From Nostoc flagelliforme FACHB-838 (GTDB lineage: Bacteria; Cyanobacteriota; Cyanobacteriia; Cyanobacteriales; Nostocaceae): a stretch of 64,000 bases of DNA. The stretch is taken from contig NZ_JACJSI010000027.1 of assembly GCF_014698065.1 (NCBI RefSeq), positions 1 through 64,000 of the forward strand, given 5' to 3'. The translations under genes and the position numbers were made by a program. Positions 22,716 to 39,824 of the stretch are shown in pieces. Position 1 is the stretch's first letter, and every line of letters starts with the position of its first letter. The notes under the pieces were generated by a model. It saw only the letters and a program-made list of their open reading frames with translations, had not been told where the DNA came from and made no database searches.

Positions 22716-23930
22716 TTACAACAGAATTGGTGGACGTTGAGCTTCTTCTACGTAACTTAATATTTTGGTAATTCTATTTTCCCAAGAAAATTGCTGGGCA
22801 AAATCTATACTAGCTGCATAACCCTCTATTTTGCGGGGATAGGTTTCTAAAGTATGTAGAATAGATTGGGCAAGTTTATGCGGGTTATCTGGTGTACACC
22901 AACTAGCAATTAAAGGTGATGCCTTGAATTCCATTAAAGGTGGAATCTCAGTTGCAACTATAGGAGTACCAGCAGCCATGTACTGAAAAAACTTAACTGG
23001 ATTCGTGAAATCTGCTGATTTTCCAGCGCAGTGAGGATGAGCCAAAATATCAGCGGCTTGAAACAAGCTGACTAATCGTTCTCGTGGAAGTATCCAGCCT
23101 AAAAATTTAACGTTTTCTACATTTTTATCTCTAGCTAGCTGTTGATATGCTTGTACCTGTGCTTCTGTACCTCCTGTGATGACAAACTGAATTTCTGGCA
23201 ATTCTTTAGCAGAATCAATTAAGAGATCGACTCCTTTGAAAGGATACAAAGCGCCTGAATAGACAACTAAATGCTTACGTCCATTTGTAAGCAATTCTTG
23301 ACGCCATATTTCGGCTTCTTGGGGCTGTCTGATTAAAAATGATCCATTGAATCCGTTATGTAGCCAAACGGCTTTTTCGGGTGGCATTCCATATTCTATT
23401 AGGCTTTGCCTGATGGGTTCCGATTGAGTAACAGCTATTTTAAAATATGGATTGTGGACAATTTCTGGCTCAAATTTTTGGTCTTGATAGTAGTGACGTT
23501 CATAGATAGTAGGAATTTTATTTTTGACTGCGGCTTTGACAAAGTTCCAATCTCGTGTATGAACAAGTTGAGAATTAGGGCGGATATGAATCGGTAGAAA
23601 ATACTTGGTTACTACTGTACTGGAGTTAGTAAACTTACCACCTATTTGATCAATGGGCCAAGGCATTGGCAATACAGCAATTTTGAGTTTTTCTTGAACA
23701 TCATAAAATTCTATAAATTCTCTGTCAGGTCTTTTGGGTTGTTCAAGATAAATTAAAGATAGTAAATTAACAGAAGATTTTTTATCTGGATACATTAAAA
23801 CTGAGGAGTAGCCTAAATTAGCCGCTGCGTTGGCACAAAGAACATCATGAATTTCGTGTGCTGTGTCTGGTTGCAGTGATAGCTCTCTGGTGTAAAAAAT
23901 ATATTGAGTTTTTTTTGAAAAATTTATCAT
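22716..23930 (-). CDS. Glycosyltransferase family 4 protein
   Basis: A GT-B fold retaining glycosyltransferase of about 404 residues. C-terminal landmarks are VVYSGALYPFKGVDLLIDSA, IQFVITGGTEAQ, NVKFLGWILPRERLVSLFQA, ADILAHPHCAGKSADFTNPV, and KFFQYMAAGTPIVATEIPPL, the glutamate-containing sugar-nucleotide region being altered to a KFFQYMA form. The frame is open up to TTG 23954, but ATG 23930 (MINFSKKTQYIFYT) is the more natural start. It lies between the ABC exporter and the GT10-like gene in the operon. Confidence 0.85.
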   Translation of the reverse strand: MINFSKKTQYIFYTRELSLQPDTAHEIHDVLCANAAANLGYSSVLMYPDKKSSVNLLSLIYLEQPKRPDREFIEFYDVQEKLKIAVLPMPWPIDQIGGKFTNSSTVVTKYFLPIHIRPNSQLVHTRDWNFVKAAVKNKIPTIYERHYYQDQKFEPEIVHNPYFKIAVTQSEPIRQSLIEYGMPPEKAVWLHNGFNGSFLIRQPQEAEIWRQELLTNGRKHLVVYSGALYPFKGVDLLIDSAKELPEIQFVITGGTEAQVQAYQQLARDKNVENVKFLGWILPRERLVSLFQAADILAHPHCAGKSADFTNPVKFFQYMAAGTPIVATEIPPLMEFKASPLIASWCTPDNPHKLAQSILHTLETYPRKIEGYAASIDFAQQFSWENRITKILSYVEEAQRPPILL

Positions 23931-23995
23931 TGTTTTGGATAATAGGTTTTTCAATATTCTGATACAAATACTTTTGTTAATTACATTAACTAAAA

Positions 23996-26236
23996 TTAAA
24001 CTTTATCCTCAAAAACCTTTAATGTCTCTAGTAGGTAAATAGCAGAGTTATAAAATTCTGTAATTAATTGATTTTGTTTTTGAGGATCGGATTCTAATTT
24101 ATCGGTTAGCAAGCGCAGAGAGCTAATGAGGGGATAGAGACGTGTGCGAAACTCATTGGAGATATTAGTGAAGTTTTGATACTGCTTATTTCCATTTTGA
24201 TTTTGATCTATATCTGACGATAACCGTGAGTTAATTTTCAAGTTAACCAGATCGTCGAAGACTTCAATGGCATTGAGAACTCTTAAGGCCGAATTGTATG
24301 ATTCGTCAATTAATTCGTGCCGCTCTTGAGAATTGTCTACCAGATCATCAACTAAAATCCCGAGGAAACCAATCATTGAGTTAAGCCTTGTCCGCAGTTC
24401 GTGAGAAATTCGGTTAAAGCTGGGATTCGTTCTGGTAAAAACTTCAGCCCGATCAGCAAATTGCATTGAATAGAGCCGTGAGTAGTAACCACCTTTTTGT
24501 AAAAGTTCTTCATGGGTGCCGATTTCTACTACACTTCCTTGGTCTAAAACGGCGATTTGATGGGCTTTTTGGACTGTGGAAAGGCGGTGAGCGATTACTA
24601 GGGTTGTGCGATCGCGACTTAGTTCATCAAGTGCAGCTTGTACTAAGCGTTCAGAAACTGTATCTAAAGCACTGGTAGCTTCATCTAAAATTAGAATCTC
24701 GGGATTTTGCAGTAGTGCGCGAGCGATCGCTAATCTTTGCCTTTGTCCACCCGATAACATCACACCGCGATCGCCAATCTGCGTATCAAATCCCTGGGGT
24801 AATTTGCTAATAAACTCATAGGCATTTGCTCGCTTTGAGGCTGTGAAAATTTCGTCATCACTAGCCTCTGGTCGTCCATAAGCAATATTGTTCCGCACTG
24901 AATCATTAAAGAGAAACGTATCTTGACTAACAATTCCCATCGCCTTCCGCACCGATTTCAAATCGAAATCTCGCAAATCTATTCCGTCTAGGGTAATACA
25001 GCCAGATGTGGGGTCATAAAATCTCGGTAAGAGGTCTGCCATTGTTGATTTACCAGCACCAGAACTACCTACCAAAGCTAAAGTAGTACCACGTGGTAAA
25101 TATAAATTTACGTCTTGAAGTACTATATTTTGATGATTAGGATAGGAAAAACAGAGATGCTTAAAATGCACTCCCTCTATTAATTTCTCGTAAGAAATTG
25201 TACCGTTTCCCATGAACGGCTTATTATCCTGCCGTAAAAAATCAGCGACAATATCCACGCTAGAAGCAGTATTAGCAAAGCTACTACGAAGAGTATTTAA
25301 CTGAGAAATAAACGGCAGTAGTCGCAATAGCAACAATAAATATGTAATCAAAACGGCTGAGACTGAACTAATCTGGTCGGCAAATAAGGTGCGACCCAAA
25401 AAGACAATGAATATTAAGGCTATAATGCCCGTCACCTCACTAACTGGTGTAATAGCCTCAGAATTCACTTGCGACTGAAAATCTGCTTTTTCTCGGTCAC
25501 GAATTAGCTTTTGAATCCGTTTATATTCTCTATCTTCATTTCCAGTTGACTTTACTAGGCGAATTCCATTTAGCATTTCCAACACAGAAATGGAATAAGC
25601 TTTAGACATCTCCGAAAGCTGGGCACCAAAATCTCTTGAGCGGTAAATTGCGTACTGATTTATTAACGTCACTAAAGTTAGCAATATTGTAGTGGCAATG
25701 GTCAACTGCCAGGAAATTGACAGCAACAAAGCCACAAAAACTAAAATTGTAATTGCCAGTATGATTAATCTGATGACGCTGCCTATAGCACTAGCAGCAC
25801 GACTAATTTCTCCCCCAAGGCTGTTGATTAGATCACCAACTTTCATTTTGGTGTAATAATCTATGTCAATATCTAGTAATAGTTTTAAGCCGGCTTCTCG
25901 CATATCAGATGTCAACGTCCGCGTTAAAGAACTTGACACTAAACTACCGACATAGCCAGCTAAATTTTTTAAAATAATTATAAATATAATTGAGCCAGCC
26001 ATCACCGCAAGACGGTAATTTTCTGGAATCTGATCAAAGGGAGAGATAATGGATTTAATAATTGGCGGAGCACCTGTCAAATCTACAGGTTGACCCACTA
26101 TTTGAAGAATGACTGGCACAATTAGCGTCGTACCCACACCGTTAAATAAAGCGCCAGAAAATCCGAACAATATTGTAAAAAATATCCTTGCTGGATAAGG
26201 TTTAGCAAATTTTACTAGTAGCTTGCGGTTAGACAT
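23996..26236 (-). CDS. ABC exporter (MsbA/lipid-glycan type) with two HisKA-like C-terminal modules
   Basis: A 746-residue half-transporter. Residues about 1-330 are a six-helix exporter membrane domain; 350-595 are the ATPase with Walker A GSSGAGKSTM, signature LSGGQRQR, Walker B ILILDEATSALD and the H-loop IAHRLSTV. An ordinary exporter would end near residue 600. Here about 145 residues follow, built from two copies of one motif: FNRISHELRTRLNSMIGF (607-624) and FTNISNEFRTRLYPLISS (689-706), each followed by a matching helix with YNSA. The first copy resembles a histidine-kinase H-box with its histidine (H612); the second has Asn instead. No kinase ATPase domain is present. It probably flips the glycan or glycolipid built by the surrounding enzymes. 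Confidence 0.9.
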   Translation of the reverse strand: MSNRKLLVKFAKPYPARIFFTILFGFSGALFNGVGTTLIVPVILQIVGQPVDLTGAPPIIKSIISPFDQIPENYRLAVMAGSIIFIIILKNLAGYVGSLVSSSLTRTLTSDMREAGLKLLLDIDIDYYTKMKVGDLINSLGGEISRAASAIGSVIRLIILAITILVFVALLLSISWQLTIATTILLTLVTLINQYAIYRSRDFGAQLSEMSKAYSISVLEMLNGIRLVKSTGNEDREYKRIQKLIRDREKADFQSQVNSEAITPVSEVTGIIALIFIVFLGRTLFADQISSVSAVLITYLLLLLRLLPFISQLNTLRSSFANTASSVDIVADFLRQDNKPFMGNGTISYEKLIEGVHFKHLCFSYPNHQNIVLQDVNLYLPRGTTLALVGSSGAGKSTMADLLPRFYDPTSGCITLDGIDLRDFDLKSVRKAMGIVSQDTFLFNDSVRNNIAYGRPEASDDEIFTASKRANAYEFISKLPQGFDTQIGDRGVMLSGGQRQRLAIARALLQNPEILILDEATSALDTVSERLVQAALDELSRDRTTLVIAHRLSTVQKAHQIAVLDQGSVVEIGTHEELLQKGGYYSRLYSMQFADRAEVFTRTNPSFNRISHELRTRLNSMIGFLGILVDDLVDNSQERHELIDESYNSALRVLNAIEVFDDLVNLKINSRLSSDIDQNQNGNKQYQNFTNISNEFRTRLYPLISSLRLLTDKLESDPQKQNQLITEFYNSAIYLLETLKVFEDKV

Positions 26237-26402: not shown

Positions 26403-27560
26403 TCATAAACGCGAAATCAACTCAGATAAAGTAGATGCCATAGCTTCTAAGCTGTATTTTCCTAAACATCTTTCTCTAGCCTTTCTACCTCGCTCCCTTG
26501 CTTGTTCTACATCGGCAAATATCAGTTGAATTTGTGCAGCAATTTGTTGGGGACAACTAGGATCAACTAAATAACCAGTTTCTGCTAAAATTTCGGGAAT
26601 ATCTCCCACTCTTGTGGATAACACAGGTTTAGCCATTGCCATCCCATCTGTTAACTTTAGAGGAAATTGGGCACGAGCAATCACGCTATCTCTTTGGGGA
26701 ACAACTACAACGTGAGCAGCTGCTACAACCTCAGGCATAACCTCCACAGGACACTTTGGTAATTTGATAATCCAGCGTCCCCATTTTTGAATCAGTTGCT
26801 CATCATAATCATCGTAAGGGCTACCTCCCACAATGACTAATTTTAAATCTTGCTGATTCAACTGATCTAACGCTATTAAGACATCTTCAACTCCCTTATG
26901 AGGTCTTGGCGCACCAGGAAACATGAGAACTCGATACTTTGTTAAACCATAACGCTCTCTGCTGACCTCTGGATTATATTTCTCAGGGTCAAACATGGCA
27001 GTATCTTTGCCATTAGGCAAATAAACACCCCCAAAGCGGTTTTGAAGAAACTGAGTATCTATCGTAATCCCATCGGCACGAGATACTAAACTTTCTATCC
27101 ACTGGAGATAAAGTGGATGATCGGGAAATCTCAATGCACCATCTTTTTTTAAAATGTCCCTGGCAAATTGTTTAAGATTAGGACGATACTTCCATTCAAA
27201 ACCTCCATGCCAGCTAAGTTCCCAATCATCCATATCTAAAAGCAAAGGACGACGACTAGCTAATTTATGCAGTAGAGACACACCAAAACTTGTTGGTTTA
27301 GGTTTGACTGCATAGATAATGTCGCCATCTAGTTTTTGCCAAAGTTTTTTCGCTGAAGCAAAAAACTCAGGATAGTTTTTACCATCAACAGCAACTAACG
27401 GTATTCCTTTAGGAGGAATAGCATATAATTCCTGACCAAATAAAAATCCTACAATTTCAACTTTATAATTGATTTTTTTTAGAACTTGAGCTAGTAAAAA
27501 AGCTCGTACTGAGCCTCCACCAGACAAGTCGCTCACAACTAACGAAACTTTTCCTTTCAT
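26403..27560 (-). CDS. Glycosyltransferase family 4 protein
   Basis: A 385-residue GT-B transferase. The N-terminal Rossmann domain begins KVSLVVSDLSGGGSVRAFLL. The C-terminal donor domain has VLMFPGAPRPHKGVEDVLIA, LKLVIVGGSPYDDY, AAHVVVVPQRDS, and FPLKLTDGMAMAKPVLSTRV, where the usual EAMA-type glutamate region reads LTDGMAM. The gene starts 12 bases after the GT2 gene and precedes the ABC exporter by 166 bases. Substrate unknown. Confidence 0.87.
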   Translation of the reverse strand: MKGKVSLVVSDLSGGGSVRAFLLAQVLKKINYKVEIVGFLFGQELYAIPPKGIPLVAVDGKNYPEFFASAKKLWQKLDGDIIYAVKPKPTSFGVSLLHKLASRRPLLLDMDDWELSWHGGFEWKYRPNLKQFARDILKKDGALRFPDHPLYLQWIESLVSRADGITIDTQFLQNRFGGVYLPNGKDTAMFDPEKYNPEVSRERYGLTKYRVLMFPGAPRPHKGVEDVLIALDQLNQQDLKLVIVGGSPYDDYDEQLIQKWGRWIIKLPKCPVEVMPEVVAAAHVVVVPQRDSVIARAQFPLKLTDGMAMAKPVLSTRVGDIPEILAETGYLVDPSCPQQIAAQIQLIFADVEQARERGRKARERCLGKYSLEAMASTLSELISRL

Positions 27561-28691: not shown

Positions 28692-29699
28692 CTAAGTTGG
28701 TATTTTGATTGAGATGTCGGCACGCTGCAAGTAATATTTCAGGAGTGCTGTATAGATGCGGTCTATTGATGGCAATGCATACTTTTTATCAGGATCACCG
28801 TCATGTGAACCCCAGATTACCGGGAAAGGATTTGGTTCCCAGACCATAAAGTTTCCCTGTTCGTCATAGCTATAATCAAAAGCCATAAAATCAAAACCTA
28901 ATGCTTTGCGTGCCTGCTGTAAAAGTTCGTGATTGGGGTCTTCTCCACTGAAATAAGCAATCTCCTCTGCTATTATTGATTCATTAATTACGCGATTATG
29001 GTTGTCGCGTACCTCCCAAGATTTGGAAACCATTAAAGGGCCAGGGATACCTTCATCTCCCATAGCGAAGTAGCGATACTTACGATATAGTCCATCTTCT
29101 CCTTTAACATCCAGAAATTCTACTGCAATAGGGGCAATAAACTTTTCAAAAGGGACATTTGCCAAATCATCAAGATTTTGGACGAAAAAGATTTGGCAGC
29201 CATGCACCCAGTCTTCACGGATAAAGAAGGGAGTTGACAATCCTGCTTGTGTCTTTTTAAAAGCTTCTGGATCAGTAATGGGAACTGTTTTGGCAGTACG
29301 AATGCCTTTTATGCTACCAATCCGTTGTGCTGCCAGTGATTTAATTGAATTTGAGAGGTTATCAATAGGATTAACAATGGGAATGTTGCGTTTTTGACAT
29401 TCTGCTTCTATTGGCTTGGCATATTGATAAATATGCGGAAATCTTTCTTTTAGGGGATCTTGTAGCCAAGGTAGAAATAGTGCATAGCGCTCCCAATCAT
29501 TTATCTCACAAGGAAGATAATGGAGTTCAAACAGATGTGCTGCTTCCGGTACATTTTGATTTACCCAATAAAGAAAATAGTCATTGTATGTAGACTGGTG
29601 ATCTTTCTGTCGCACCACAAGGATGCGCTTGGGATATCGGACGTTGTTCATTGCGTCCCGAATTGCTGAAATTACTTGTTGCCGAAATTCTTTGTACAT
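28692..29699 (-). CDS. ATP-grasp-like protein at the head of the glycan operon
   Basis: 335 residues. The C-terminal two thirds look like an ATP-grasp ligase: STPFFIREDWVHG (nucleotide-binding strand), PIAVEFLDVKGEDGLYRKYR, and near the end ALGFDFMAFDYSYDEQG followed by VWEPNPFP, where the E-x-N pair would bind magnesium. The N-terminal part (RILVVRQKDHQSTYNDYF) is unassigned. Such enzymes join a carboxylate to an amine or similar group, so it could decorate the glycan or a lipid or peptide carrier; that is inference. It is the first gene of the nine-gene minus-strand run, and its upstream spacer must hold the operon promoter. Confidence 0.65.
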   Translation of the reverse strand: MYKEFRQQVISAIRDAMNNVRYPKRILVVRQKDHQSTYNDYFLYWVNQNVPEAAHLFELHYLPCEINDWERYALFLPWLQDPLKERFPHIYQYAKPIEAECQKRNIPIVNPIDNLSNSIKSLAAQRIGSIKGIRTAKTVPITDPEAFKKTQAGLSTPFFIREDWVHGCQIFFVQNLDDLANVPFEKFIAPIAVEFLDVKGEDGLYRKYRYFAMGDEGIPGPLMVSKSWEVRDNHNRVINESIIAEEIAYFSGEDPNHELLQQARKALGFDFMAFDYSYDEQGNFMVWEPNPFPVIWGSHDGDPDKKYALPSIDRIYTALLKYYLQRADISIKIPT

Positions 29700-30074: not shown

Positions 30075-30848
30075 ATGCAGATAATCCGTCTTGAAGCACT
30101 CTCAGACAACTATATATTTTTACTGTACGATCGCAAACAAAATATTGCTGCTGTTGTCGATCCAGCTGAGGCTCAACCAGTATTAAAGAAACTGGCAGAA
30201 TTAAAAGCTGAGTTGGTAGCGATTTTTAACACCCATCACCATAACGATCATGTGGGTGGTAATAAAGAGTTGATAGAACAATTCCCTCAAGCGATAGTTT
30301 ATGGAGGAGCCGAGGATCGTGGTAGAATTCCCGGACAGCAGGTATTTTTGCAACAAAGTGATCGCGTTCAATTTGCAGACCGCATAGCTGAAGTTATCTT
30401 CGTTCCTGGGCATACCCGCGCTCACATCGTTTACTACTTTCCTGCTGAAAAAGCTGGTGAGACAGGCGATTTGTTTTGCGGTGATACCTTATTTTCTGGC
30501 GGTTGCGGTCGTTTATTTGAAGGAACACCGACCCAAATGGTGGACTCTTTAAGCAAACTGCGCTCTCTACCCGATGATACACGCGTTTGGTGTGCCCACG
30601 AATACACCTTAAAAAACCTGCAATTTGCCTTAACTGTGGATAGTGATAACGCCGACTTACAAAAGCGCTTTAATGAAGTGAAGGCTTACCGTAGTCGAGG
30701 AGAAGCTACCATACCCTCGCTGCTAGGGGTGGAGAAGCGAACCAATCCCTTTTTACGTTGGGATGAGCCATCATTACAATTAACTGTTAAAAGTAGCGAT
30801 GGAGTGCAAACCTTTACGCGTATACGGGAAATGAGAAATAATTTTTAG
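30075..30848 (+). CDS. gloB: Hydroxyacylglutathione hydrolase (glyoxalase II)
   Basis: A 257-residue metallo-beta-lactamase-fold hydrolase that releases D-lactate and glutathione from S-lactoylglutathione, the second step of methylglyoxal detoxification. Metal ligands are in [13 protein letters not shown] (about 52-64), [12 protein letters not shown] (histidine), [16 protein letters not shown] (bridging aspartate) and [13 protein letters not shown] (histidine). C-terminal residues include the KRTNPFLRW substrate-binding segment. Length is typical. Strong ribosome site GGGAGG. Confidence 0.94.
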
Positions 30849-36440: not shown

Positions 36441-39400
36441 ATGGTTAATAACGATTCTGCACGAGCAGAGAACAATCAGCACTTGCTAATGCGCTTACCG
36501 CAGACCCTGAGTTATCTCGAAACCTGGGGCTTTGGTTTAACGGGTCATGTTGGATGGATTGGTACTGCCCCTATCATTCATGCAGCGTTAGGGCCTAAAG
36601 CAATCTTAGTTTGGTTTTTCGGTACGATCATTTCCTTTTTACTTAACTTGCAGGTACAAAGTCTAGGTAGACACTGGTCAGATGTCGCAGGAGGTACACC
36701 AAACTACACCACAAGGCTATTAAAGAACTTTCCTGGCTTAGGGCGTTACGTAGCTTTAGGATACTTTTTTAGCTGGGCAGCAGCACCAGCTCTGTATGCG
36801 ATTATTCTCACCAACCTAATTAAAGTCAATTTTGAAACATTAGGTATTTCTTGTCCAGAAACTTTCTTAAAAGTTTTATTTACAGCGATTCCTTTTATTT
36901 TGGCCTTCAGTGGCACTCGTGCTTTAGCTCTCCTGCATTTATTTTTTGTATTCCCAGCGATTTTATTACTGTTATTGTTTTGTGTTCAAGGCGTATTATG
37001 GTTAGCCTTTTCATCTGCTAGTTTTCAATTTTCCCCAACTAGCACACATAGCCTGAGTTTTGAAGAATGGGCAAAGTGGTTTTTTCTAGCTAGCTATTCA
37101 ATTTATGCTTGTGAAACCACTTCTTCTTTTGTTGCTGATAGTCGTCACCCAAATAAAACTTTAAAGTTCTTAACTGTGGCTGCTTGGTTGATTCCTCTAG
37201 TGTTTTTAGGTGGTTCTTGGGTATTAATGTGTTCGGCTCCAAATCCCACGATAGGTGACGATACATTCTTAAATTTGGTAGCGGCTTCTAAGCCTTTTTG
37301 GGGTAAATCTGCCCCCTTTCTAGCAACACTTCTAATCACTATATCTTGCCTTCTAAGTTCTGCTACGGCAGTTTCCAACTCTCCTCGGATGTTATACCAG
37401 CTTGCCTTAGACAGACAGATTTCTCCCATATTTGCATTAGTTTCTCGTCAAGGTGTTCTTGGCCCTGCTATTTTAGTTACCTTTCTACTCAGTTTACTTT
37501 GTCTAAATTTGGGAAATGTATCTCAACTTGTTACAGTAGCAGGCACCTGTTATCTTATGTCCATTATGGGACTACATCTGGGATTATGGCTATGTCGGGG
37601 CAAACCACACGTGTTATGGCCTTGGTGGTCACTTGGTTTCTTTTTGGTAGAAGCAGTAGTTCTTATAGTAGGAGGTTTAGCTTGGAATTGGAGAGATTTC
37701 TTAATAGGATTATTATTACCTATTATTCTCATGAGCGCAGATGTAGCGTTACGTCGTTTAAGATTTGCGCCATTACACCCGAACTGGTGGACACAGCGTC
37801 ATAATACTAACTCTAGTAGAAATAACCCTGATTTTGTAGTATTACAAGTGATTGTTTTAGTATCATTAATTTGTACTACTGCCACAATTAGTTGGGTGAT
37901 CCGCGATTTTTTAGATAGACATTCTACTAATCCTCAAAACTCTTTGCTGGCTATTCTCTTAGTGACGCTTTCTTTTACAGGAGTAGCGATCGCTTGCTGG
38001 ACTACTTTACCACAAATTATTGCTATTGATGAAGCACGCAAACAAGCAAGAAACCTATTTATTACTACTCTCGATACCGTTCCAGATACTGTTTTAGTCT
38101 TAGATGAAAACGGGACAATTTCTCAAACAAATGCTGCTGCTGAAGAATTATTTCAAACAAGTGTTCAGGAACTGCTTGGGCAAAACTTGAGTCAAATTCT
38201 GATATGCTATCACGGCAAACCAGAGCAATGGTCTATTAGAAGTGAGCAAACCTTAAAAACTAACCAAGGTTTACGAGTTGTTGAATCAACTATTTCACAA
38301 CCATTTAATTCCCAGCTACGTGAGTATATTGTTATTATCCGTGACATAACTAAGCGGAAGCTAGCAGAGGAAGAATTAGGCCAGTACCGTTATCAACTTG
38401 AGCAGTTAGTGCTAGAACGCACTATTGAGCTTATTAGACTTAATCAACAACTTCAACAAGACATTATCAAGCGTCAAGAAGCACAAGAACAATTACTACA
38501 TAATAGCCTTCATGACGGGCTAACTGGATTACCTAATCAACGATTATTTTTGGAGCGGGTGCAACAGGCAATAGAACATAGTAAACAGCAGAAGAATTAT
38601 TTATTTGCCGTACTTTTCTTAGACCTAGACCGCTTTAAAGTTGTTAATGACAGCCTTGGACATTTGTTGGGAAATCAACTTTTGATTGCAATTTCTCATC
38701 GGCTAAAGTCAATTCTACGAACCGGAGACATCGTTGCTCGTTTTGGCGGAGACGAGTTCACAATTTTAATCGAGGAAATTGAAGATATCAGCACCGCCAT
38801 ACACGTAGCCGAGCGAATTAAAAAGATTTTAGCTTCGCCATTTCAATTAAATGAGCATCGGGTATTTACTAATGTTAGTATTGGCATCGCTTTAAGCAAA
38901 CCAGATTATGAGCAAGCAGCGCAGATTCTACGCGATGCTGATGTGGCAATGTATTGTGCCAAAGCTCTTGGTAAGGCACGTTATGAAGTTTTTGATTCAA
39001 AGATGCACGAGGGTGCAGCTTTGCTCTTGGAGTTAGAAACTGCTTTACGTCATGCGTTGCTCAAGCAAGAAGAATTTCGCCTTGATTACCAGCCAATTAT
39101 TTCACTAACAACTGGCAAAATTATTGGATTTGAGGCACTGATACGTTGGTATCATCCAGAACGAGGGCTTATTTCCCCTGAAGATTTTATTCCTCTGGCG
39201 GAGGAAACTGGAATGATTGTTAGTATCGGGCAATGGGTGCTTTATGAAGCCTGTCAGCAAATGCACTCATGGCATCAACAATTTCCTACCTCACTACCTC
39301 TGACAATTAGCGTAAATTTTTCTGGTAAACAAATCACGCAACCTGATGTGTTTCAAGAAGTTAAATATATTTTGCAGCAAACTGGACTGGAGCCAAGCTG

Positions 39401-39824
39401 TTTGAAATTGGAGATTACTGAAACCTTGTTGATGGATAATTTTGAATTAGCTACTACTGTGCTTTCCCAATTAACAACACTGAATGTTGAGTTACACATG
39501 GATGATTTTGGTACTGGCTATTCGTCCTTGAGTTATCTGCACCGCCTACCAATCAAAACCATTAAGATTGATCGCTCTTTTGTCACCAGTATAGGTAGCC
39601 GAGGAGAAAATTTAGAAATTATTCGAGCAATCGTGACATTGGCTCATAATTTAAATATGTCTGTAACAGCAGAAGGGATAGAAACTGTAGAGCAATTAGC
39701 ACAATTGAAGGCTTTACAATGTGATTATGGACAAGGGTATTTTTTCTTACCACCTATGGGATGTGCAGAAGTAGAAATACTACTTGCTGCTAACTTGTGC
39801 GGAAAAAACTTTTTAAAGAGATAA
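36441..39824 (+). CDS. APC-type permease-PAS-GGDEF-EAL protein (c-di-GMP enzyme with transporter-like sensor)
   Basis: A 1127-residue membrane protein. Residues about 20-520 carry a dozen or more hydrophobic helices and resemble an amino-acid/polyamine permease (LSYLETWGFGLTGHVGWIGT, FFSWAAAPALYAIIL, ASYSIYACETTSSFVADSRH). A PAS domain (about 535-640: TVPDTVLVLDENGTISQTNA, IIRDITKRKLAEEE) and a coiled coil follow. GGDEF domain: GGDEF at 769-773, with inhibitory-site RTGD at 760-763. EAL domain: EAL at 898-900, then SVNFSG, EITET, DDFGTGYSSL, IKIDRSF, TAEGIET and QGY. Motifs for both cyclase and phosphodiesterase activity are intact. It may sense an amine or amino acid and set c-di-GMP level; that coupling is inference. 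Confidence 0.9.
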   Translation: MVNNDSARAENNQHLLMRLPQTLSYLETWGFGLTGHVGWIGTAPIIHAALGPKAILVWFFGTIISFLLNLQVQSLGRHWSDVAGGTPNYTTRLLKNFPGLGRYVALGYFFSWAAAPALYAIILTNLIKVNFETLGISCPETFLKVLFTAIPFILAFSGTRALALLHLFFVFPAILLLLLFCVQGVLWLAFSSASFQFSPTSTHSLSFEEWAKWFFLASYSIYACETTSSFVADSRHPNKTLKFLTVAAWLIPLVFLGGSWVLMCSAPNPTIGDDTFLNLVAASKPFWGKSAPFLATLLITISCLLSSATAVSNSPRMLYQLALDRQISPIFALVSRQGVLGPAILVTFLLSLLCLNLGNVSQLVTVAGTCYLMSIMGLHLGLWLCRGKPHVLWPWWSLGFFLVEAVVLIVGGLAWNWRDFLIGLLLPIILMSADVALRRLRFAPLHPNWWTQRHNTNSSRNNPDFVVLQVIVLVSLICTTATISWVIRDFLDRHSTNPQNSLLAILLVTLSFTGVAIACWTTLPQIIAIDEARKQARNLFITTLDTVPDTVLVLDENGTISQTNAAAEELFQTSVQELLGQNLSQILICYHGKPEQWSIRSEQTLKTNQGLRVVESTISQPFNSQLREYIVIIRDITKRKLAEEELGQYRYQLEQLVLERTIELIRLNQQLQQDIIKRQEAQEQLLHNSLHDGLTGLPNQRLFLERVQQAIEHSKQQKNYLFAVLFLDLDRFKVVNDSLGHLLGNQLLIAISHRLKSILRTGDIVARFGGDEFTILIEEIEDISTAIHVAERIKKILASPFQLNEHRVFTNVSIGIALSKPDYEQAAQILRDADVAMYCAKALGKARYEVFDSKMHEGAALLLELETALRHALLKQEEFRLDYQPIISLTTGKIIGFEALIRWYHPERGLISPEDFIPLAEETGMIVSIGQWVLYEACQQMHSWHQQFPTSLPLTISVNFSGKQITQPDVFQEVKYILQQTGLEPSCLKLEITETLLMDNFELATTVLSQLTTLNVELHMDDFGTGYSSLSYLHRLPIKTIKIDRSFVTSIGSRGENLEIIRAIVTLAHNLNMSVTAEGIETVEQLAQLKALQCDYGQGYFFLPPMGCAEVEILLAANLCGKNFLKR

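Follow-up and report, generated by a model that had tools for sequence, protein, structure and literature searches.

Within a window of 64,000 nucleotides from Nostoc flagelliforme FACHB-838 (contig NZ_JACJSI010000027.1, positions 1 to 64,000), a gene for an ATP-binding cassette (ABC) half-exporter encodes, behind its ATPase domain, two tandem copies of a helical hairpin derived from the DHp/HisKA domain of sensor kinases. We think it probable that this tail is a domesticated, disarmed pseudo-DHp hairpin that dimerizes, normally between half-transporters; a role as helical clamp or docking piece is more likely than one as phosphorylated switch. Sequence comparison establishes the homology to kinase domains, the class-wide orthology of the exporter, the absence of the catalytic marks and the purifying selection acting on module 1 of the tail. 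The gene and its parts are as follows, with ratios of nonsynonymous to synonymous substitution rates (dN/dS) where available:

23996..26236, minus strand: ABC half-exporter gene (ABC_membrane, ABC_tran and tandem HisKA-derived tail), 746 residues; open reading frame (ORF), Pfam, synteny
24449..26236, minus strand: transporter core, residues 1-596 (transmembrane and ATPase domains); PF00664, PF00005; dN/dS median 0.11
24239..24427, minus strand: module 1, residues 604-666, HisKA/DHp-derived helical hairpin, strongly conserved; Pfam, repeat alignment, profile; dN/dS median 0.12
24401..24403, minus strand: His612 codon CAC, equivalent of the kinase phospho-acceptor; mostly Tyr in orthologues beyond the window's family
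24386..24388, minus strand: Arg617, standing where catalytic kinases have the H-box proline
24182..24238, minus strand: linker, residues 667-685, under weak constraint; median dN/dS 0.71 (12 pairs gave a value)
23999..24181, minus strand: module 2, residues 686-746, second copy of module 1, in which Asn694 takes the place of the His

Both Pfam domains of type IV ABC exporters are found above their cut-offs in one chain, namely PF00664 (86.7 bits, cut-off 28) and PF00005 (120.4 bits, cut-off 25), which places the protein in this class. As the initial annotation had read from the DNA (its coordinates 23996-24427 correspond to residue 604 through the stop codon), the exporter ends in two HisKA-like modules, residues 604-666 and 686-746. 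Aligned with each other, these reach a Smith-Waterman score of 125 over 59 columns, as compared to 26 ± 5 and a maximum of 50 in 1000 shuffles. The proposed check against HisKA supports a HisKA ancestry, with PF00512 scoring 33.4 bits on the whole protein (gathering cut-off 26.9) in two stretches, of which residues 609-662 are the best. Furthermore, a profile built from 48 modules, three of them from the window's own family, retrieves both modules genome-wide at E values of 1.5e-26 and 1.4e-14, and the HisKA likeness is therefore beyond chance. The position of the His612 codon (CAC, with Asn694 as the counterpart in module 2) was likewise read correctly, as was the absence of a kinase catalytic domain: the Pfam search found no HATPase or other kinase catalytic domain in the 746-residue exporter at E values up to 10. 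Structure prediction yields helical hairpins and, from the two modules, a single-chain four-helix bundle (predicted template modelling score, pTM, 0.75), in support of the suggestion that the helical tail could adopt such a fold.

Among proteins of 0.55 to 1.75 times the query length, to which the candidates were limited, the closest non-exporter relatives of the tail are 15 cyanobacterial GAF-HisKA-HATPase kinases (P0063-P0077; 42-60 % identity over 31-48 % of the query), and a kinase of the same genome (G000:C556) ranks next after module 1 in the profile search with an E value of 1.1e-17. The DHp/HisKA domain of these kinases is homologous to the tail, but they possess a HATPase domain and the H-box proline, whereas the exporter tail has neither, and its His is mostly replaced outside the window's clade. 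Most simply read, the sequences point to an early fusion of a kinase DHp to an exporter and to later losses in some lineages. UniRef gives the name 'histidine kinase' to an orthologue from Iningainema tapete (P0049) although Pfam lists no catalytic kinase domain for it, and the HisKA label is thus misleading for these exporters.

What became of the phospho-acceptor site can be followed across the orthologues, with positions counted from profile alignments and position 0 denoting the phospho-acceptor His of the kinases. In 130 tails from outside the window's family, this position holds Tyr in 115, His in 11 and Phe and Gly in one each, with gaps in the other two (L119, whose first match is weak and partial and whose clear module has Tyr, and L281, with Arg by eye). 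Among the 84 copies of module 1 in the window's clade, 66 have His and 10 have Tyr, and the remaining 8 carry Gly, Asp, Val, Gln or Asn; over distinct C-terminal pieces, His amounts to 65 of 83 inside the clade and 11 of 126 outside. On a tree of the transporter core, most deep branches carry Tyr, and the His cases make up one block in the window's clade, with others scattered elsewhere, some of them deep (L143, L101, L134). At least 11 changes between His and not-His are required, four of them inside the window's clade, on what is a quick tree with many weak forks and a warning on long outgroup branches, whose change counts do not tell gain from loss. The His of the window's clade may have been kept from the kinase ancestor or regained from Tyr. 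In module 2 of the same clade, position 0 is free (Asn, Asp, Val, Ile, Ala or Glu; entropy 2.83 bits). Two exporters, L097 and L283 (from G028 and G052), contain an eight-residue H-box repeat, SHELRTRL followed immediately by SYEVRTRL; the additional copy carries the His, and the copy in the regular register has Tyr.

The second mark of a phospho-acceptor, the H-box proline at +5, occurs in none of the 306 tail module copies aligned (7 with a gap there). All 25 catalytic kinases compared have it, including those most closely related to the tail; the pattern used for the kinases required His and admitted only P or Q at +5, but this cost none of the 25 candidates. A functional phospho-acceptor domain combines a conserved His with this proline, and the exporter tails show neither, so the site does not behave as a family-wide phospho-acceptor. 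These observations bear directly on the proposal of the initial annotation that a separate kinase phosphorylates His612 in trans and thereby switches glycan export. In its favor are the 66 of 84 clade members with His and the Glu at +1, which is present in 82 of the 84, but the other 18 carry Tyr, Gly, Asp, Val, Gln or Asn instead, Tyr prevails outside, and the proline is missing throughout. Moreover, the entropy of the His position in the clade's module 1 (1.18 bits) is higher than that of −1, +1, +3, +4 and +7 (0.19-0.57 bits), although below that of +2 (1.41 bits), and there is no kinase nearby as a rule: a search of the flanks by BLAST with 10 kinases of the same genome, a weak probe for lone regulators, returned a kinase- or regulator-like ORF in only 12 of 140 loci. 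A transporter-kinase module of the Bce type, considered as a candidate, was rejected on the same count. Conservation of His612 in orthologues had been named beforehand as one of the points on which phosphorylation in trans would stand or fall; His612 is not conserved, the idea is not supported, and we regard such a relay as very improbable, while the His may have a role where the window's clade retains it.

Tyr at the phosphorylation site is also a feature of DivL, which works in vivo without kinase activity and whose binding of DivK is disrupted by the mutation R553A at Tyr +3, as given in the consulted sections of the report (PMC4211667). This combination suggests another scenario, in which the pseudo-DHp tail binds a response regulator, perhaps only in its phosphorylated form, and a two-component system gates the exporter post-translationally with the tail itself remaining unphosphorylated. 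Several features of the tails would suit it, since besides the usual Tyr the Arg at +3 is found in 129 of the 130 tails outside the window's family (one gap), and on helix 1 positions 0, +1, +3, +7 and +11 are conserved and +5, +8, +12 and +14 variable, a grouping made after inspection of the table, in which helix spacing would put the conserved positions on a common face. (A table comparing kinases and modules used a pattern fixing Arg +3, and the Arg +3 counts were therefore taken from the profile alignments.) However, in the window's clade module 2, where residue 0 drifts, also retains Arg +3 in most copies (72 of 84, 8 gaps), and the role of this Arg is thus probably structural. Catalytic kinases conserve the same helix 1 positions as well, and positions +8 and +12 after the His, which we take to set regulator specificity, vary in the tails. 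In addition, no regulator gene was a regular neighbor in the limited check described above. We therefore consider docking of a regulator to the tail, the strongest of the alternatives, conceivable but doubtful, and marginally more doubtful still its extension across cyanobacteria, according to which the DivL-like pseudo-DHp of a glycan-linked ABC exporter docks a response regulator or its phosphorylated form, such that signaling gates export at the transporter rather than via transcription.

Selection on the tail was gauged from 14 close pairs, which are not independent (six include the window) and offer few sites. Module 1 has a median dN/dS of 0.12 and the transporter core one of 0.11, and purifying selection is thus equally strong on both; module 2 stands at 0.26 and the linker, in the 12 pairs that gave a value, at 0.71. 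Outside the window's family, Glu +26 is conserved to the same extent as Arg +3 (129 of 130, one gap), and Gly +11 and Tyr +35 are found in 121 and 115 tails, respectively. A tail decaying as a functionless remnant would be in line with module 2 being nearly unconstrained between the window and its six near relatives (dN/dS 0.61-1.21) and with the several orthologues that have no tail at all; against this stand the core-like constraint on module 1, the conservation of Arg +3, Glu +26 and Gly +11, and the values of 0.06-0.26 for module 2 in the other 8 pairs. A remnant is hence improbable to nearly the same degree as the relay. The contrast between the two sets of pairs suggests that module 2 may be losing constraint in the window's lineage.

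Homology searches covered 148 genomes of the window's order and 242 of its class, taken to be Cyanobacteriia, and revealed the exporter in many families of the class. The matches mostly end near query residue 661-690, corresponding to one module, and those reaching residue 742-746 belong to the window's own family (f1) and to family f52. By profile, all 84 proteins examined from the window's clade have a second module, as do, with clear matches, 6 of the 137 outside loci (L098, L109, L112, L114, L117 and L277), from which it follows that the module was doubled more than once; L115 and L119 have weak, partial second matches and were left out when at least three changes between one and two modules were counted on the core tree. 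Between tail and no tail, the count is at least four. The tail module is absent from exporters L102, L105, L106, L107, L118 and L137, and tail-less exporters also appeared in the class-wide search, for example, in G180, G302, G327, G255, G206, G314 and G308, which lie outside the locus set. The 130 tails mentioned above are the 137 outside loci minus the six tail-less ones and L145, which is cut by a contig end; as 80 short tails were picked because their match ran into the tail, 130 of 137 is not a frequency of tail presence. Loci L009-L088 (80 named) were assigned to the window's family by name alone, L121 repeats L011, four pairs outside the family share identical C-terminal pieces, and the core tree leaves out L199 (which repeats the L139 gene) and the odd-numbered loci of L009-L088. 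The named relatives of the exporter are all from cyanobacteria save P0082, a one-module tailed exporter under a metagenome-assembled genome labeled Actinomycetota, where it is likely a misplaced contig.

Taken as a disarmed dimerization hairpin, the tail would go back to an ancient fusion, in which a HepA/MsbA-like half-exporter in a glycosyltransferase locus acquired at its C-terminus a hairpin copied from a cyanobacterial GAF-HisKA-HATPase kinase. The phospho-acceptor chemistry would then have been lost (His to Tyr in most lineages, with the H-box proline gone) and the helical packing retained. For exporters with one module, we infer that the two hairpins of a homodimer pair between chains to a four-helix bundle that tethers both ATPase domains, a tether that might stabilize or tune the transport cycle. 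In the window's clade, tandem duplication is predicted to allow the bundle to be closed within a single chain, by its modules 1 and 2, which would leave the residue at the old His site free, above all in module 2. That parts at an exporter C-terminus can matter is indicated by the homodimeric exporter BmrA, whose C-terminal helix is required for activity according to the parts of the study consulted (PMC11774805).

The genes around the exporter provide the setting that the initial annotation had assumed, with GT2 and GT4 glycosyltransferase genes upstream and GT4, GT10 and GT8 genes downstream. Three neighbors recur in the comparison or adjoin the exporter:

26403..27560, minus strand: GT4 glycosyltransferase gene directly upstream of the exporter, the usual neighbor (124 of 140 loci)
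22716..23954, minus strand: second GT4 glycosyltransferase gene, directly downstream of the exporter
30075..30848, plus strand: divergently oriented hydroxyacylglutathione hydrolase-like gene, present beside the exporter in 98 of 140 loci (flanks unequal in length)

The homologue of the upstream GT4 gene lies on the same strand within 1.5 kb in 79 of 80 named and 45 of 60 unnamed loci; the glycosyltransferase linkage is thus real, and the compared exporter genes are largely orthologues in place. Second exporter copies of family f52 (L110, L111, L113, L115 and L116) have no upstream GT4 gene and may be paralogues; the stretch between their ATPase domain and the module is roughly 100-180 residues longer, and the module is of the Tyr type. 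Presumably, the substrate is a glycan or glycolipid, judging from gene context, and exporter and GT4 partner together look like a cyanobacterial glycan export system of which we found no description. Also in the window, a 335-residue protein of the glycan locus (28692-29699, minus strand) matches nothing in Pfam or NCBIfam at the thresholds applied and is found in 8 of 140 related loci. Apart from this locus, a protein of 1127 residues (36441-39824, plus strand) has an amino-acid permease region (residues 33-404) fused to PAS, GGDEF and EAL domains, and is possibly a transporter-linked sensor for cyclic di-GMP.

Summed up, a signaling hairpin appears to have turned into a fixed transporter part across a large share of a bacterial class, with the phosphate chemistry mostly gone and the fold kept, and the disarmed tail offers a natural test of DHp roles besides phosphotransfer, be it as clamp, spacer or regulator dock. 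Exporter class and fold, the latter in disarmed form, are each known, and their combination appears undescribed in the literature titles and abstracts searched, where no ABC exporter with a DHp tail was found (subscription journals being mostly outside the coverage). The core itself is closest to the HepA family (heterocyst formation ABC transporter) and MsbA, which are likewise type IV ABC exporters and the best curated models, with HepA_fam_ABC at 569.8 bits (residues 3-593) and MsbA_lipidA at 454.7 bits; the glycosyltransferase setting is a further point of likeness. Neither cut-off is reached (725 bits for HepA, NF045513, and 602 bits for MsbA), and the match to the 610-position HepA model stops at residue 593 and leaves the tail uncovered. 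An assignment as HepA equivalog was rejected on this score, the HepA of the same genome being another gene (G000:C79, 1060.8 bits, above the cut-off), and the exporter is therefore best described as a HepA-related system. BmrA differs in having one C-terminal helix, in two parts, for which the parts of that study consulted mention no kinase link (PMC11774805). With the Caulobacter pseudo histidine kinase DivL, most tails outside the window's family share the Tyr at the DHp phospho-acceptor site and Arg +3, although the window's own copy has His. DivL, as far as the consulted sections describe it, resembles a complete kinase, has PAS and catalytic-type domains and binds DivK (PMC4211667), whereas the ABC exporter has nothing but the hairpin fused to it. 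In BceAB-BceS, an ABC transporter is likewise coupled to a DHp-containing protein; in the consulted account of that system (PMC10314905), however, the kinase is separate, complete, membrane-bound and acted on by the transporter, whereas the exporter described here carries its disarmed DHp in its own chain.
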